From: Anaerolineales bacterium
GTDB lineage: Bacteria; Chloroflexota; Anaerolineae; Anaerolineales; DRMV01
Reading direction: 5' to 3'
Assembly (NCBI GenBank): GCA_026996855.1
Contig: JALWJZ010000031.1
Location: forward strand, 1 to 58,703
DNA: 58,703 bases
Each line of letters opens with the position of its first letter. Positions within the stretch are counted from its first letter, which is position 1. Below the pieces are notes generated by a model, which saw nothing but the letters and a program-made list of their open reading frames with translations, made no database searches and had not been told where the DNA came from. Below are positions 16,966 through 58,703 of the stretch, one piece after another. The translations under genes and the position numbers were made by a program.

Positions 16966-16994
16966 TGGTCAAAATTTCGCCTTTCGCGTATACT
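16966..16994 (+). promoter_or_regulatory. Putative atpA promoter
   Basis: TGGTCA (16966-16971), a 17-base spacer and TATACT (16989-16994) lie 42 bases before the atpA start. Confidence 0.55.
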
Positions 16995-17036
16995 TCCACC
17001 GACCGGGAACGGAACTCAGAAGAGGAGGTCGTGGAC

Positions 17037-18710
17037 ATGACCGACTTGTTCCAGCAAATCACCGCGGAACTGCAACGGCAGATTGCGACTTTCCGGCCTT
17101 CGGTGGCCGTGGAGGAAGTAGGCTACGTCATCGAAGCCGGCGACGGCATCGCGCGCGCTACCGGCCTGCCCAACGTCCGTGCCCAGGAACTGGTCCAATT
17201 CGAAAACGGCACCATGGGCATTGCCTTCAACCTGGAAGAGGACAACGTGGGCATCATCATCATGGGCCGCATGGAGGGCATTCGGGAAGGCACCCGGGTG
17301 TACACCACGGGCCGCATCGCCTCGGTACCGGTGGGCGACGGCCTCATCGGCCGGGTGGTGAACCCCCTGGGCATCCCCCTGGACGGCAAGGGGCCCATTC
17401 CTTTTGAAAAATATCGACCGGTGGAAATCATCGCCCCACGCGTGATGGAGCGCAAAGACGTGGACACCCCGGTGCACACGGGCATCAAGGCCATCGATGC
17501 CATGATTCCCATCGGCCGGGGCCAGCGGGAACTCATCATCGGCGACCGACAGACGGGCAAGACGGCCATCGCGCTGGATGCCATCGTCAGCCAGAAGATG
17601 AGCCGGGACATGATTTGCATCTATGTGGCCATCGGCCAGAAGAAGGCCCAGGTGGCCCGCATCATTCACGAACTGGAAAGCCTGGGCGCCATGGACTACA
17701 CCATCGTGGTGGTGGCCTCGGCCGAAGACCCCGCCGCGCTGCAGTACCTGGCCCCCTACGCGGGTTGTGCCATCGGCGAGGAATTCATGGAGCAGGGCAA
17801 GGACGTGCTGGTGGTGTACGACGACCTCTCTAAGCACGCCTGGGCCTACCGGGAAATCTCCCTGCTCATGCGTCGGCCTCCGGGCCGTGAGGCGTACCCT
17901 GGGGACGTCTTCTACCTGCACTCCCGCCTGTTGGAGCGAGCCGCTCGCCTGGCCGACAAGTACGTCATCGTGCCCAAGGAGTACGAAAGCGAAGACGGCA
18001 TGGCCGCGGCCGAGGACCGGGTAGAAGGCACCCCCGTGTTCGACGGCCCCATTGCCCTGCACGAAGCGGAGCAATACCTGGAGGCGATGGAAAACAAAGA
18101 TGCGTACAAAATCCTCAAAGTGCGGGGCAGTGGCGGCTCCCTGACCGCGCTCCCCATCATCGAGACCCTGTTGGGCGACGTGTCGGCCTACATCCCCACC
18201 AACGTGATTTCCATTACCGACGGCCAGATTTACCTGGAAGCCGGCCTGTTCAACGCGGGTATCCGCCCCGCCATCAATGTGGGTATTTCCGTTTCCCGCG
18301 TAGGCGGCGATGCCCAGACCAAAATCATGAAAAAGGTGGCCGGCCAGTTGCGGCTGGACATGGCCGCGTTCCGGGAACTGGCCGCGTTCGCCCAGTTCGC
18401 CTCGGAACTGGATCCGGCCACCCAGGCCAAATTGAACCGCGGCCTGCGCCTGCAAGAATTGCTCAAGCAGCCGCGGTATTCCCCCCTGCCCCTCTCCCAC
18501 GAAATCCTGGCCATTTACGGCGGCACCCGGGGCTACCTGGACGACGTGCCCCTGGAACGGGTTTCCGAATGGGAGAAGGCCCTGATTCGCTTTGCCGAAA
18601 CCAACGCGCCCGAGCTGCTGGAAAGCATCGAAACCGTCAAGGACCTGACACCGGAAATCGAAGCGCGCCTGAACGAAGTCCTCAAAGAATTCATGCGCAC
18701 CTGGAAATAA
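17037..18710 (+). CDS. atpA: F1 ATP synthase subunit alpha
   Basis: This 557-residue regulatory nucleotide-binding subunit belongs to the F1 alpha3beta3 hexamer on the cytoplasmic face. The P-loop GDRQTGKT is at 169-176, and the N-terminal beta-barrel ([20 protein letters not shown]) and C-terminal helical domain are intact. The protein is somewhat longer than the usual ~505 residues at its C-terminus. AGGAGG lies 8 bases before ATG 17037; GTG 17031 is too close to the site. It is unusual in starting the operon without atpH and in being separated from atpG by a Uma2 gene. Confidence 0.98.
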
Positions 18711-18731
18711 CGTCCACCAACGACTGGATAT

Positions 18732-18759
18732 CGGCTACTGGCTGCCGGCTAACCGCTAC
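18732..18759. repeat. Degenerate heptamer array (family D, 4 units)
   Basis: CGGCTAC, TGGCTGC, CGGCTAA and CCGCTAC follow head to tail between the atpA stop and the Uma2 start. It is short, so it is a tentative member of the heptamer arrays seen elsewhere in the window. Confidence 0.45.
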
Positions 18760-18776
18760 CCCGCGAGGCTCATCGC

Positions 18777-19430
18777 ATGACCTTGATGCTGCTGGACGCC
18801 CACACGAAAGAACCGGTTCAAGCCGAGTACCTGGTGCACCTGCCCGGGTGGACCCTGGAACGTTACTTGGCTGAAGCGCCGGAGAACGCGTTTTGGGAAT
18901 ATGTCCACGGGGAGGTCATCGTGCATTCGCCAGTTTACGCCGAGCATCAAGCGGTTGTCCTGTTTCTGACCGGATTGCTTCGAGGCTTTTGTCAACACAC
19001 GGGGCTATGTTGTCCTGTATTGACTGGCCCGGCGGGGTTGCGCCTGGAGCCGGAGGTGATACGAGAACCAGACATCTTCGTACTGGCACCGGAGGATGCG
19101 GAAAAGGCCCGGGGCTTCCCGGTGGAAGCCCGGCCCCTGCTGGTGGTGGAAGTGGTGAGTCCTTCCACCCGGCGGCTGGACCTGGAGGTCAAGCCCCAGG
19201 AATATGCCCGGGCCGAAATACCGGAATACTGGGTGGTGGACCGGGAACGGCGCACCTTCCACCAGTACCTCCTGGCGGACAAGGGCACCTATCGGGTGGA
19301 AGAGTACCGGGAGGGACGGGTAGAAGCCCACTCACTTTCGGGCTTCTGGATGCAGGTGGAATGGCTGTGGCAGGAGCCGCTCCCCCCGGAGACCCAACTG
19401 CTCGCCCGCATCCTCCCCACTGACCCCTGA
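18777..19430 (+). CDS. Uma2-family (DUF820) PD-(D/E)XK nuclease-like protein
   Basis: The 217-residue Uma2 fold protein has an intact putative catalytic set: Glu46 (HGEVIV), Asp99 (REPDIFVL), Glu125 (LLVVEVVSPST) and Lys139 (EVKPQEYA), followed by IPEYWVVD. The family is greatly expanded in Cyanobacteria and Chloroflexota and is presumed to be endonuclease-like, with unknown biology. It sits on the same strand between atpA and atpG. Heptamer arrays lie on both sides, and its stop codon lies inside the downstream array. GAGG precedes ATG 18777. I see no transposase or terminal inverted repeats. Confidence 0.9.
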   Translation: MTLMLLDAHTKEPVQAEYLVHLPGWTLERYLAEAPENAFWEYVHGEVIVHSPVYAEHQAVVLFLTGLLRGFCQHTGLCCPVLTGPAGLRLEPEVIREPDIFVLAPEDAEKARGFPVEARPLLVVEVVSPSTRRLDLEVKPQEYARAEIPEYWVVDRERRTFHQYLLADKGTYRVEEYREGRVEAHSLSGFWMQVEWLWQEPLPPETQLLARILPTDP

Positions 19431-19480
19431 CCACTGTCCCCTGTCCACTGATCACTGACCACTGTCCACTGACCCCTACC
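19418..19480. repeat. Heptamer tandem array (family A, 9 units, CACTGWC)
   Basis: Nine head-to-tail heptamers run CACTGAC, CCCTGAC, CACTGTC, CCCTGTC, CACTGAT, CACTGAC, CACTGTC, CACTGAC, CCCTACC. The TGA in unit 2 is the Uma2 stop codon. The same family occurs in reverse orientation at 43620-43668. Confidence 0.9.
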
Positions 19481-19494
19481 CCAGAGGTATGCCT

Positions 19495-20400
19495 ATGGCC
19501 GCAACGGCGCGAGAAGTCAAAAAGCGCATTCAAAGTGTGAAGAACATCGCCCAGATCACCCGCGCGCTCCAGGCCGTGAGCGCCAGCAAGGTGCAGCGCG
19601 CGGTGCAGATGGTGGAAGCCACCCGGCCTTATGCCACCAAGGCCTGGGAAGTGCTCACCCACCTGGCCCAGGACCCCTTGCGGCGGCAATTGCACCCTCT
19701 GCTGGCCCCGCGGGAAGGGGTACGCAACACCGCGGTGGTGCTCATCACCGCGGACCGGGGCCTGGCCGGACCGTACAACACGGAAATCTTGCTGGCTGCC
19801 CATCGGCGGTTTCACGAGCATCCTGTGCCCGTGCAGTGGGTGACCGTCGGCCGCAAAGGCCGGGATTACGTTGCCCGTCGGCGCTATAACTTGCTGGCCG
19901 ATTTCAGCGGTCTGGCCGACCCGCCCACCTATGTGGACGTTTCCCCGGTGGGACGGCTGGTGGTAGAAGAATATCTGGCCGAGAACGTGGACGAGGTGTA
20001 CGTGGTCTTCATGGACTTCATCAGTTTCATGCGCCAAGAAGTGCGTATCCAGAAGTTGCTACCTCTGGAACTGGACGCCGGGGAAACCGCGGAAGGCGTG
20101 CTGGAAGCCCGGGTAACCCCCTCGCAACTGGCGTACATTTACGAGCCGGACCCGGACACCCTGCTCAGCGAAATCGTTCCCCGTTTCATTCAGTTGCAAA
20201 TCTACCGCGCGGTACTGGAAGCCCGGGCCAGCGAGCACGCGGCCCGGATGGTGGCCATGAAACGGGCCACGGACAACGCCACCGAACTGGCTGGCTTGCT
20301 GCAACTGGAATACAACAAGGCCCGGCAGCAAGGCATTACCCGGGAATTGATGGACATCGTGGGTGGCGCCGAGGCCCTGCGCAAACAACGAGAAGGATGA
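19495..20400 (+). CDS. atpG: F1 ATP synthase subunit gamma
   Basis: The 301-residue central stalk subunit rotates inside the alpha3beta3 ring. The N-terminal helix (REVKKRIQSVKNIAQITRALQAVSASK) and the C-terminal helix (MKRATDNATELAGLLQLEYNKARQQGIT) are both typical. AGAGGT lies 7 bases before ATG 19495; the upstream ATG 19489 is only one base from that site. The gene starts 64 bases after the Uma2 stop and directly follows the heptamer array. Confidence 0.97.
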   Translation: MAATAREVKKRIQSVKNIAQITRALQAVSASKVQRAVQMVEATRPYATKAWEVLTHLAQDPLRRQLHPLLAPREGVRNTAVVLITADRGLAGPYNTEILLAAHRRFHEHPVPVQWVTVGRKGRDYVARRRYNLLADFSGLADPPTYVDVSPVGRLVVEEYLAENVDEVYVVFMDFISFMRQEVRIQKLLPLELDAGETAEGVLEARVTPSQLAYIYEPDPDTLLSEIVPRFIQLQIYRAVLEARASEHAARMVAMKRATDNATELAGLLQLEYNKARQQGITRELMDIVGGAEALRKQREG

Positions 20401-20447
20401 CGACGACCCACTGTTGGGTACGACCTATGTTCAATTCCCATCGTTGA

Positions 20448-21878
<1,431 letters not shown>

Positions 21879-21890
21879 CCCGAATCGTGC

Positions 21891-21932
21891 ATGAAAACAG
21901 GGGCACGGGCCGTACCGTGCCCCTATTTTCAT
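21891..21932 (+). terminator. Intrinsic terminator of the atp operon
   Basis: AGGGGCACGG (21899-21908) pairs with CCGTGCCCCT (21915-21924). Flanking ATGAAAA/TTTTCAT extends the stem to about 18 bp with one mismatch. It starts 13 bases after the atpD stop. Confidence 0.85.
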
Positions 21933-38350: not shown

Positions 38351-38455
38351 CGACCACCGGCGGACAGCGAACGGCCACCGGCCAACGGCCAACGGCCACC
38401 GACCACCGGCCAACGGCCATCGGCGAACGGCGAACGGCCATCGACCACCGGCCAC
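38351..38455. repeat. Heptamer tandem array (family B, 15 units, CGGCCAN)
   Basis: Exactly 105 bases divide into 15 heptamers of the form CGRCSAN, with CGGCCAA, CGGCCAC, CGACCAC and CGGCGAA recurring. It fills the gap between the convergent cobQ-cobU and cdsA stops. The family reappears in reverse at 41561-41595. Confidence 0.92.
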
Positions 38456-38459
38456 TTTT

Positions 38460-41552: not shown

Positions 41553-41560
41553 AGGGGGTG

Positions 41561-41595
41561 TTGGCCGTTCGCCATTGGCCGTTGGCCGGTGGTTC
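41561..41595. repeat. Heptamer array (family B reversed, 5 units)
   Basis: TTGGCCG, TTCGCCA, TTGGCCG, TTGGCCG and GTGGTTC are the reverse complement of the family at 38351-38455. It starts 8 bases after the UbiA stop. Confidence 0.8.
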
Positions 41596-41633
41596 TTCAG
41601 CCGGTAACCGAAAGCCGCCTGCAAACCCGCTTA

Positions 41634-41681
41634 TTCGCATATCCGCTCATCCGCAAATCTGCTCATTCGCCCATTCGCCCA
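41634..41681. repeat. Octamer array (family C, 6 units, TYCGCNNA)
   Basis: TTCGCATA, TCCGCTCA, TCCGCAAA, TCTGCTCA, TTCGCCCA and TTCGCCCA run head to tail. The last units overlap the queG coding end and supply its stop codon. A second copy of the family is at 43682-43761. Confidence 0.88.
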
Positions 41682-43592: not shown

Positions 43593-43619
43593 CAGGGGTT
43601 CCTCCTTGGTTGGGTAGTT

Positions 43620-43668
43620 GTCAGTGGTCAGTTGTCAGTGGACAGTGAACAGTGGACAGTGGTCAGGG
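43620..43668. repeat. Heptamer array (family A reversed, 7 units, GWCAGTG)
   Basis: GTCAGTG, GTCAGTT, GTCAGTG, GACAGTG, AACAGTG, GACAGTG and GTCAGGG are the reverse complement of the 19418-19480 family. Confidence 0.9.
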
Positions 43669-43681
43669 CGTCGTCCCTTGA

Positions 43682-43761
43682 TTCGCATATTCGCATATTC
43701 GCCCATCCGCAAATCCGCTCATCCGCCCATTCGCCCATCCGCTCATTCGCACATTCGCAGA
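43682..43761. repeat. Octamer array (family C, 10 units, TYCGCNNA)
   Basis: There are ten consecutive octamers such as TTCGCATA, TTCGCCCA, TCCGCAAA and TCCGCTCA. The array sits 13 bases from the family A array and ends 9 bases before the M23 peptidase stop. Confidence 0.9.
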
Positions 43762-43770
43762 TATCGCACC

Positions 43771-56963: not shown

Positions 56964-58703
56964 ATGTCCAAAATCCCGTTGCGCGTGTACATTCGGAACA
57001 TTGACGACCTCATCGCCCAAGAAGCCTACCAAAAAGCCTTCATCCAAGCCCGCCATGTGCTGTATCACTTCCCCAAATACCTGGAAGCCTACCGAGTGTT
57101 GGGCAAGGCCTACCTGGAAGCGCGCCAGTACGGCGACGCCCTGGAAGTGTTTCAACGTCTTCTGTCTGCCGTGCCGGAAGATTTTTTGGCCCATGCCGCG
57201 ATGAGCATCATCCGAGAGGAAGAAGGCGACCTGGACAGCGCCATCTGGCACATGGAACGGGCTTTTGAAGCGCAACCCGCCAACCTGCTGATTCAAGAGG
57301 AACTGCAACGCCTCTACCGGGAACGGGACGGTATTGCCCCGCCGCGCATCCGCCTCACGCGAGCCGCGTTGGCCCGCATCTACCTGCGCAGCGGCATGTA
57401 TCCCCAGGCCATCCTGGAACTGGAAGCCCTGCTGCAGGCCCAGCCCCGCCGCTACGATTTGCGAGGCTTTTTGGCCGAAGCCTATGAAAAGGCCGGGCAG
57501 GACACCAAAGCCCTGGAAGTCGCGGCCCGCCTGTTACGGATATTGCCCTACCACTGGCGAGCCAATTGGGGCATGGTGCGGGTGTTGCGCCGCCAGGGCC
57601 GGGGAGACGAAGCCGAGCGCTATTGGGAGCGCATCGTGGCCATGGAACCGTACGCCGCTTATGTTTCGGACAAATGGCCTACACCGGAACAGGTTCCCGA
57701 CGAAATGGTCACCCTTGGTGAACTGGCCTGGGACGAAGAAGACATCCTCTTGGAACTGGAAGACCAGATGCCCGGCCTTCTGCTGACCGATTCGGGACTT
57801 GAACCGGAACTGCTGGCCCTCCCCGGCGACCTGGAAGCCCTGGGAATGAGCGAAGACCTGGACCTGGACTCCGAACTGATTCCGCCATGGATCGAAGCCG
57901 AGACCGAGGAAGCCCAAGTCGCTCCGCAACCTTCCCAAGCCGAAGAACCCGAGAGCGAAAAACCCGCGTTGGAACAGGGCGATATACCGGAGTGGTTGCA
58001 AGCCCTGGCTCCCGAACCCAAAGTCGGCCTTCCCGAAGGCGACCTCCCCGAAGAGGACCTTTCCTGGCTGGAAGAGGCCTTGGCCCAAACGGAGGAAGCG
58101 GAAAGCCTGGTCGCACCGGTGTTGAAACCCAAATCGGAAGAAACCCTTGAAACGGAAGAGACTCCAGCCGAGGAGCCCACCTGGCTCCAGGAAGAAACCC
58201 AAGCCGTTCCGATGGAAATGGAAGAGGAAGCGCCGACATGGCTGCAAGAAGTGGTCGCGGCCCCCGAAGAAACGGTCGAAACCGAAGCGGTGGACGTCGG
58301 GGAAATGCCCGAATGGCTGAAAGAGATGGCGCCAGAAGCCGAAACCGAAGAAGCCGGTGAAAGGATCGAGGCAACCGAGATTCCCGACTGGTTGAAAGAA
58401 GCGATGCCGGAACCTGAAACCGAAACCACCGCCGAAGGGATCGAGGAGGACGAAATTCCCGACTGGCTGAAAGAGGTGGCACCGGAAACAGAAGGTGAAG
58501 CCTTCGTAACACAGGAAGAGGCCCAGGTCCCCGAATGGCTCCAAGAGGCCGCACCCGAGGCGGTGGCCGAGACCCCCGAAGCCGAGGTCGAGGCCCTGGA
58601 AGAGGCCCAGGTCCCCGAATGGCTCCAGGAAGCCGCACCCGAGGCGGTGGCCGAGACCCCCGAAGCCGAGGCCGAGGCCCTGGAAGAGGCCCAGGTCCCC
58701 GAG
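56964..58703 (+). CDS. TPR protein with PxWLxE repeats (3' end outside the window)
   Basis: The frame is open from ATG 56964 (ACGAGGTGAAGC upstream) to the window edge, giving 580 residues without a stop. Residues ~1-235 form tetratricopeptide-like helices (AYQKAFIQARHVLYHFPKYL, YGDALEVFQRLLSAVPEDFL). After a transition zone, the remainder is very acidic and repeats PE/PD-WL-Q/K-E about nine times. The last part is a 28-residue unit in near-identical copies. It is probably a cytoplasmic protein-interaction scaffold; the partner is unknown. Such TPR/PxWL proteins are, from memory, typical of Chloroflexota. Confidence 0.85.
   Translation, partial: MSKIPLRVYIRNIDDLIAQEAYQKAFIQARHVLYHFPKYLEAYRVLGKAYLEARQYGDALEVFQRLLSAVPEDFLAHAAMSIIREEEGDLDSAIWHMERAFEAQPANLLIQEELQRLYRERDGIAPPRIRLTRAALARIYLRSGMYPQAILELEALLQAQPRRYDLRGFLAEAYEKAGQDTKALEVAARLLRILPYHWRANWGMVRVLRRQGRGDEAERYWERIVAMEPYAAYVSDKWPTPEQVPDEMVTLGELAWDEEDILLELEDQMPGLLLTDSGLEPELLALPGDLEALGMSEDLDLDSELIPPWIEAETEEAQVAPQPSQAEEPESEKPALEQGDIPEWLQALAPEPKVGLPEGDLPEEDLSWLEEALAQTEEAESLVAPVLKPKSEETLETEETPAEEPTWLQEETQAVPMEMEEEAPTWLQEVVAAPEETVETEAVDVGEMPEWLKEMAPEAETEEAGERIEATEIPDWLKEAMPEPETETTAEGIEEDEIPDWLKEVAPETEGEAFVTQEEAQVPEWLQEAAPEAVAETPEAEVEALEEAQVPEWLQEAAPEAVAETPEAEAEALEEAQVPE
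58515..58703 (+). repeat. 84-base in-frame tandem repeat in the TPR gene
   Basis: Copies begin at 58515, 58599 and 58683 (cut by the window). The first two differ at 3 of 84 bases. Each encodes 28 residues with the motif VPEWLQEAAPEA. Confidence 0.9.

Follow-up and report, generated by a model that had tools for sequence, protein, structure and literature searches.

A Uma2 gene lies within the ATP synthase operon

The window, the whole 58,703-nucleotide stretch of DNA that was analysed (contig C31 of the genome referred to here as G000), carries atpA, a gene of the Uma2/DUF820 family, atpG and atpD in that order, all on the plus strand (Table 1). In a profile search the Uma2 reading frame scores 113 bits with PF05685, for which the curated cut-off is 27. 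Uma2 proteins from the window genome and its relatives were aligned, and across these 22 sequences E41, H57, P98-D99, E125, S128, D135, K139 and E150-Y-W are invariant. An AlphaFold2 model of the window protein has a mean pLDDT of 92.9. The solved structures that Foldseek finds closest to this model are 6okh (E 5.8e-13), 9y1l, 1wdj and 3ot2, the last being a PDB deposit labelled DUF820. From the model and these matches, the protein is predicted to adopt a restriction-endonuclease-like fold. A preliminary description of this DNA had reported a Uma2 gene with a full set of PD-(D/E)XK residues separating atpA from atpG, and the profile score, the invariant residues and the fold bear this out.

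The window gene resembles the known Uma2 family (PF05685, DUF820, COG4636; structures 1wdj of TT1808 from Thermus, 3ot2 from Anabaena, 6okh and 9y1l) in sequence family, fold and the invariant P-D...E...K set. A single genome may hold many paralogues, frequently in tandem, and large lineage-specific expansions are known from Thermus and from thermophilic cyanobacteria (PMC1274311, PMC9403480). The same pattern of paralogues holds here. Unlike what is reported for the family, the copies described below are placed inside the atp, nuo, opp and nusA-infB operons; a small literature search found no earlier report of Uma2 inside any of these.

Comparison with the junction sequences of relatives places the start of atpG at 19489 or, more likely, at 19495 with its conserved ATGGCC, and the GAGG that atpG has upstream of its start is undisturbed by the insert. 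Neither of the spacers that flank Uma2 contains a terminator-like site; downstream of atpD there is a strong hairpin. Co-transcription of atpA, Uma2, atpG and atpD is therefore plausible on sequence grounds. The F1Fo genes of G000 are split: atpA, atpG and atpD occupy 17031-21924 of the window, a delta subunit (OSCP) match lies at C66:9767-9982 and the epsilon subunit at C48:6448-6684. The window ends in long tandem repeats (58302-58702) with units of 75 and 84 nt, the 84-nt ones being 97% alike. They appear to encode an acidic repeat protein and continue past the end of the window.

Table 1. Features of the window at and around the Uma2 gene, with the evidence for each.
Feature	Position in window	Strand	Evidence
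Sigma-70-like promoter match, weak, upstream of atpA	16966..16994	+	Consensus scan, 9/12 positions; count of such matches about that expected by chance
atpA, F1 ATP synthase alpha subunit	17031..18710, start probably 17037	+	PF00006 E 3.6e-80, PF00306, PF02874
Heptamer array before Uma2, weak, CGGCTAC-like, ~4 units	18732..18760	+	TRF score 30, 68% matches
Uma2/DUF820 family gene, 217 aa	18777..19430	+	PF05685 E 1.3e-32
Uma2 PD-(D/E)XK residues	D99 19071-19073, E125 19149-19151, K139 19191-19193	+	Invariant in alignment
Heptamer array after Uma2, CCACTGA-like, ~8-9 units (8.3 by TRF)	19416..19482	+	TRF score 74, lag-7 scan
atpG, F1 gamma subunit	19489..20400	+	PF00231 E 1.6e-90
atpD, F1 beta subunit	20460..21878	+	PF00006 E 2.1e-74
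Terminator-like hairpin closing atpA-Uma2-atpG-atpD	21899..21924	+	10-pair stem, then T-containing tail
Heptamer array, AACGGCC-like, no Uma2 nearby	38358..38456	+	Repeat scan, lag-7
Heptamer array, AGTGGTC (reverse complement of GACCACT), no Uma2 nearby	43613..43670	+	Repeat scan, lag-7

The insertion is confined to one genus

Genomes of the order (61 in all, every one a draft assembly, the relatives being catalogued as Anaerolineales MAGs) were searched with an atpG probe, and 27 atpA-atpG junctions were read that belong to genera of the family and order other than the window's own. Sequences of three sister-genus junctions were among those inspected. None of the 27 contains Uma2, and the aligned portions of atpA and atpG end about 17-207 bp apart. 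The empty site in relatives for which the preliminary description had proposed to look is thus found throughout the junctions of other genera. Uma2 is present at this place in all four of the metagenome-assembled genomes that represent the window's genus, in one of them as a remnant. Rather than being kept here across distant genera, the insert is confined to a single genus, and the operon that flanks it is otherwise intact.

The four occupied junctions differ from one another. G000 has a single ATP-operon copy. G002 has two in tandem, with 80 and 83% identity to the window protein, and G003 has one intact copy that is 66% identical to it. G001 retains a remnant that has lost its centre by a frameshifting deletion between short GAGGTGGTC repeats, next to intact atpA and atpG. 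These junctions show that Uma2 was inserted between atpA and atpG at a site that is empty in other genera, and that it became two copies in one species and was disrupted in another. The four genus members have 5-16 Uma2 copies each, and no Uma2 was found anywhere in the eight genomes searched from the family's other genera.

Across G001 and G003, three Uma2 copies (L079 4577-4965, L133 647-970 and L134 1143-1733) lack the central part including the catalytic Asp. The breakpoints differ among the three, and loss of the catalytic centre seems recurrent.

Descent, selection and the addiction hypothesis

A tree of 45 Uma2 proteins groups the ATP-operon copies of G000, G002 (both) and G003 in one clade (100/98), nested in a genus-wide Uma2 clade of 25 proteins (100/100). 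Because the intact ATP-operon copies form one clade, a single insertion followed by descent is the simplest reading, and we infer that the genus ancestor acquired the insert once and that descent was mainly vertical thereafter. The branching order is in conflict between genes. The Uma2 tree places G003 outside G000 and G002, whereas the atpA and atpG trees, for which the G003 atpG was assembled from two overlapping contigs, place G002 outside G000, G001 and G003. Given this conflict, the G003 copy may have changed faster, or species may have exchanged the gene. The two G002 copies differ little outside one central block; in that block copy 2 is closer to the G000 gene, which suggests a gene-conversion patch. 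The intact ATP-operon proteins are under purifying selection, with NG86 dN/dS of 0.13-0.27 between copies.

These results bear on the proposal, made in the preliminary description, that a nuclease-like protein co-transcribed with an essential complex acts as an addiction-like or regulatory partner of ATP synthase. Purifying selection and the probable co-transcription with atpA, atpG and atpD would suit such a role. An addiction module, however, should be hard to lose, and in G001 the gene has been reduced to a frameshifted deletion remnant while atpA and atpG remain intact. This broken copy argues that Uma2 is dispensable for ATP synthase and for survival. The gene is also absent from this site in the other genera examined, and the same Uma2 subfamily is found in unrelated operons (nuo, opp, pdx and nusA-infB). 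No small partner ORF, as in a type II toxin-antitoxin system, was found at this locus, where Uma2 takes up the room between atpA and atpG. We consider an addiction-like or regulatory function extremely improbable.

Heptamer arrays are separable from the Uma2 gene

Heptamer arrays lie on either side of Uma2, as the preliminary description had noted, and the second begins in the 3' end of the gene, overlapping the last codons and providing the TGA stop. The upstream array is the weak one, but the lag-7 signal of both exceeds that of 2000 dinucleotide shuffles (p 0.0005 each). Three further lag-7 places in the window, two listed in Table 1 and a third at about 41556-41592, are without Uma2, so the arrays are not specific to this gene. 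A 437-kb sample of G000, enriched for contigs with Uma2 or arrays, contains 36 lag-7 arrays, and a further 206 kb of the same genome picked blindly contains 4. Blind samples of the other species gave 15 arrays in 114 kb (G002), 2 in 141 kb (G001) and 2 in 95 kb (G003). Octamer arrays (ATTCGCAC-like) at 43681-43769 and 41621-41681 of the window adjoin heptamer arrays, and the two kinds are often neighbours in G000.

Heptamer repeats have been reported in Beggiatoaceae and cyanobacteria (TAACTGA; PMC4679880) and in Chloroflexus, as the GATAGRA satellites of Chloroflexus aurantiacus (PMC6749651). The arrays described here share with both the 7-nt period, the occurrence at many places per genome and the mostly intergenic position. 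They differ in their unit sequence, which varies widely (CCACTGA, CCAACGG, CGGCTAC, CAGTTAG and others, with 8-nt arrays as well).

If the arrays had carried Uma2, other Uma2 genes might be flanked by them, as the preliminary description anticipated. This was not the case for most: of 11 Uma2 genes sampled from G000, 3 lie within 300 bp of an array and 8 do not. Arrays just 3' of Uma2, within 150 bp, were counted at 3/11 against 20/372 (Fisher p 0.02, uncorrected, on crude gene calls), an excess that includes the window, chosen for this very feature, and two copies on one contig. The gene caller used for this comparison put 20 of the 36 arrays mostly within called ORFs. An association of arrays with Uma2 3' ends is unproven.

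Recombination between heptamer arrays could in principle have moved Uma2 into the operon. Arrays flank the gene on both sides in G000 and G002, and the tandem duplicate of G002, a 687-bp unit that is 90.5% identical, starts in CCACTGA repeats; here the arrays may have served unequal crossing-over. Against this route, the intact G003 copy sits between array-free spacers and the G001 site is also without arrays. Most arrays in turn have no Uma2 beside them, and no arrays accompany the tandem Uma2 pairs at opp and pdx. Array-mediated transposition is rejected on the array-free G003 orthologue, the genome-wide spread of arrays and the mostly array-free Uma2 genes. The idea that arrays placed the gene is largely refuted, and entry into the operon by recombination between them is very unlikely. 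Of the proposed cassette moved with or placed by the repeats, the insertion therefore stands, on 27 empty junctions and an intact flanking operon, and the transport by arrays falls. Since G002 branches outside the other three species in the trees of atpA and atpG, arrays at this site could be ancestral and later lost, which bears on whether Uma2 or the arrays came first. Nuclease gene and arrays lie side by side yet are separable, and proximity alone misleads.

Related copies occupy other core operons

Copies of the Uma2 subfamily sit in several core operons, noted locus by locus. All four genus members carry a copy between nuoF and nuoG, a position at which none of the other genera examined has one. 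The oppC-oppD gap of G000 holds a Phd-PIN pair and two Uma2 genes. This insert (Phd antitoxin, PIN toxin, two Uma2; L114, C5 6254-8640) has the 3' end of oppC on each side of it, as a direct repeat of 100 bp (96% identical) that is possibly the scar of the insertion event. No comparable remnants of the atpA or nuoF 3' ends were found behind Uma2. The oppC-oppD gap of a sister genus is empty. Two Uma2 copies follow pdxS and one follows the HMG-CoA reductase gene, and orthologous copies hold their places across the genus.

The gap between oppC and oppD in G003 (L262, C381 504-1500) holds, instead of Uma2, an unrelated gene that is metal-transporter-like by eye. Another family of the order has divergent Uma2 genes immediately 5' of oppD and also 3' of the ABC ATPase gene that comes next (L270, G019 C526 2-3292), so the opp operon looks like a repeated landing place. 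Within the same class, the order nusA, Uma2, infB was found at several loci of family f25, some with tandem pairs. The f25 proteins are among the nearest relatives outside the genus, at 52-57% identity; a peptide-pattern scan of contigs, with patterns that were probably narrow, had yielded no Uma2 relatives outside the genus before the later genome search found f25.

Free-standing homing endonucleases in T4-like phages are lodged between conserved genes, as Uma2 is in several operons here. The window gene might likewise spread by intronless homing, cutting junctions without Uma2 in conserved operons and being copied by repair from the occupied allele, with co-conversion of the flanks. On this model the subfamily would consist of selfish free-standing PD-(D/E)XK nucleases homing into the atpA/atpG, nuoF/nuoG, oppC/oppD and nusA/infB spacers and spreading between strains. 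The likeness to T4 seg/mob and to PD-(D/E)XK homing enzymes (I-Ssp6803I) extends to distribution, a nuclease gene between conserved genes that is present in one clade and missing in another: one conserved site is occupied in 4/4 genus members and empty in 27/27 other loci. The predicted nuclease fold, the oppC repeat around the toxin-antitoxin and Uma2 insert and the gene-tree mismatch around the ATP-operon copy are consistent with homing, and PD-(D/E)XK is one of the known homing families (PMC6083498).

Other observations argue against homing. Between G000 and G002, the signal for conversion of the flanks was locally suggestive, with p 0.02, uncorrected, within +/-200 bp, and had p 0.35 in a window-scan permutation; since the scan is not significant overall, transfer is not claimed. 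Among the four genomes of the genus no polymorphism of occupied and empty sites was seen, and no shared target motif was demonstrated. I-Ssp6803I has a poor fold-match score against the Uma2 model, and the window gene belongs to a different subfamily from those enzymes. We regard homing of the window gene as improbable, and selfish homing of the whole subfamily as no likelier. If true, it would account for the large Uma2 expansions in cyanobacteria, Thermus and Chloroflexota.

A proposed standalone nuclease expressed from the atp operon

The papers found in this analysis give no established function for Uma2. The family has been described as likely solo toxins forming cassettes of paralogues (PMC2701414). 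For the ATP-operon copies, the conserved active site together with purifying selection favours a working nuclease.

Such a nuclease might serve as a standing defence against phages and plasmids, always present because it is housed in a strong constitutive operon. In PADLOC the window protein scores best with four models for PDC-S03, a phage-defence candidate (best E 5.5e-27), and the profile match spans most of the protein. Purifying selection, the many paralogues of varied sequence and the Phd-PIN pair that adjoins two Uma2 genes in the opp operon also agree with defence. PDC-S03, however, is a candidate label only, the atp locus has housekeeping neighbours and no defence island, and the catalytic centre has been lost at this site in one of the four species. 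Dedicated defence is conceivable and, on balance, doubtful.

The reading that we favour, and consider fairly probable, is that a multi-copy Uma2 family is present in this genus and absent from the family's other genera, that one copy inserted once between atpA and atpG and was inherited, and that it is expressed from the atp promoter as a standalone nuclease, the arrays being separate. Uma2 would have entered the spacer upstream of the ribosome-binding site of atpG, so the operon would have kept working and Uma2 would be read from the atp promoter. Its product would be a standalone PD-(D/E)XK DNA nuclease, self-serving or directed against invaders, with no partner in ATP synthase. Core-operon spacers may be good homes for Uma2, since they are transcribed and their neighbours cannot be deleted. 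The heptamer arrays would have a separate origin, as repeats of the slippage type that formed in many of the genus's spacers, and their only likely part would be as a recombination point for the G002 tandem duplication and as the stop codon in G000. The active site, the selection and the broken G001 copy favour a standalone nuclease lodged for expression, whether selfish or defensive, over addiction or regulation.

Some groups of bacteria have large numbers of Uma2 genes. The atpA/atpG, nuoF/nuoG, oppC/oppD and nusA/infB junctions have clean empty and occupied states in relatives, and these provide defined DNA substrates on which homing, defence and toxicity may be tested.
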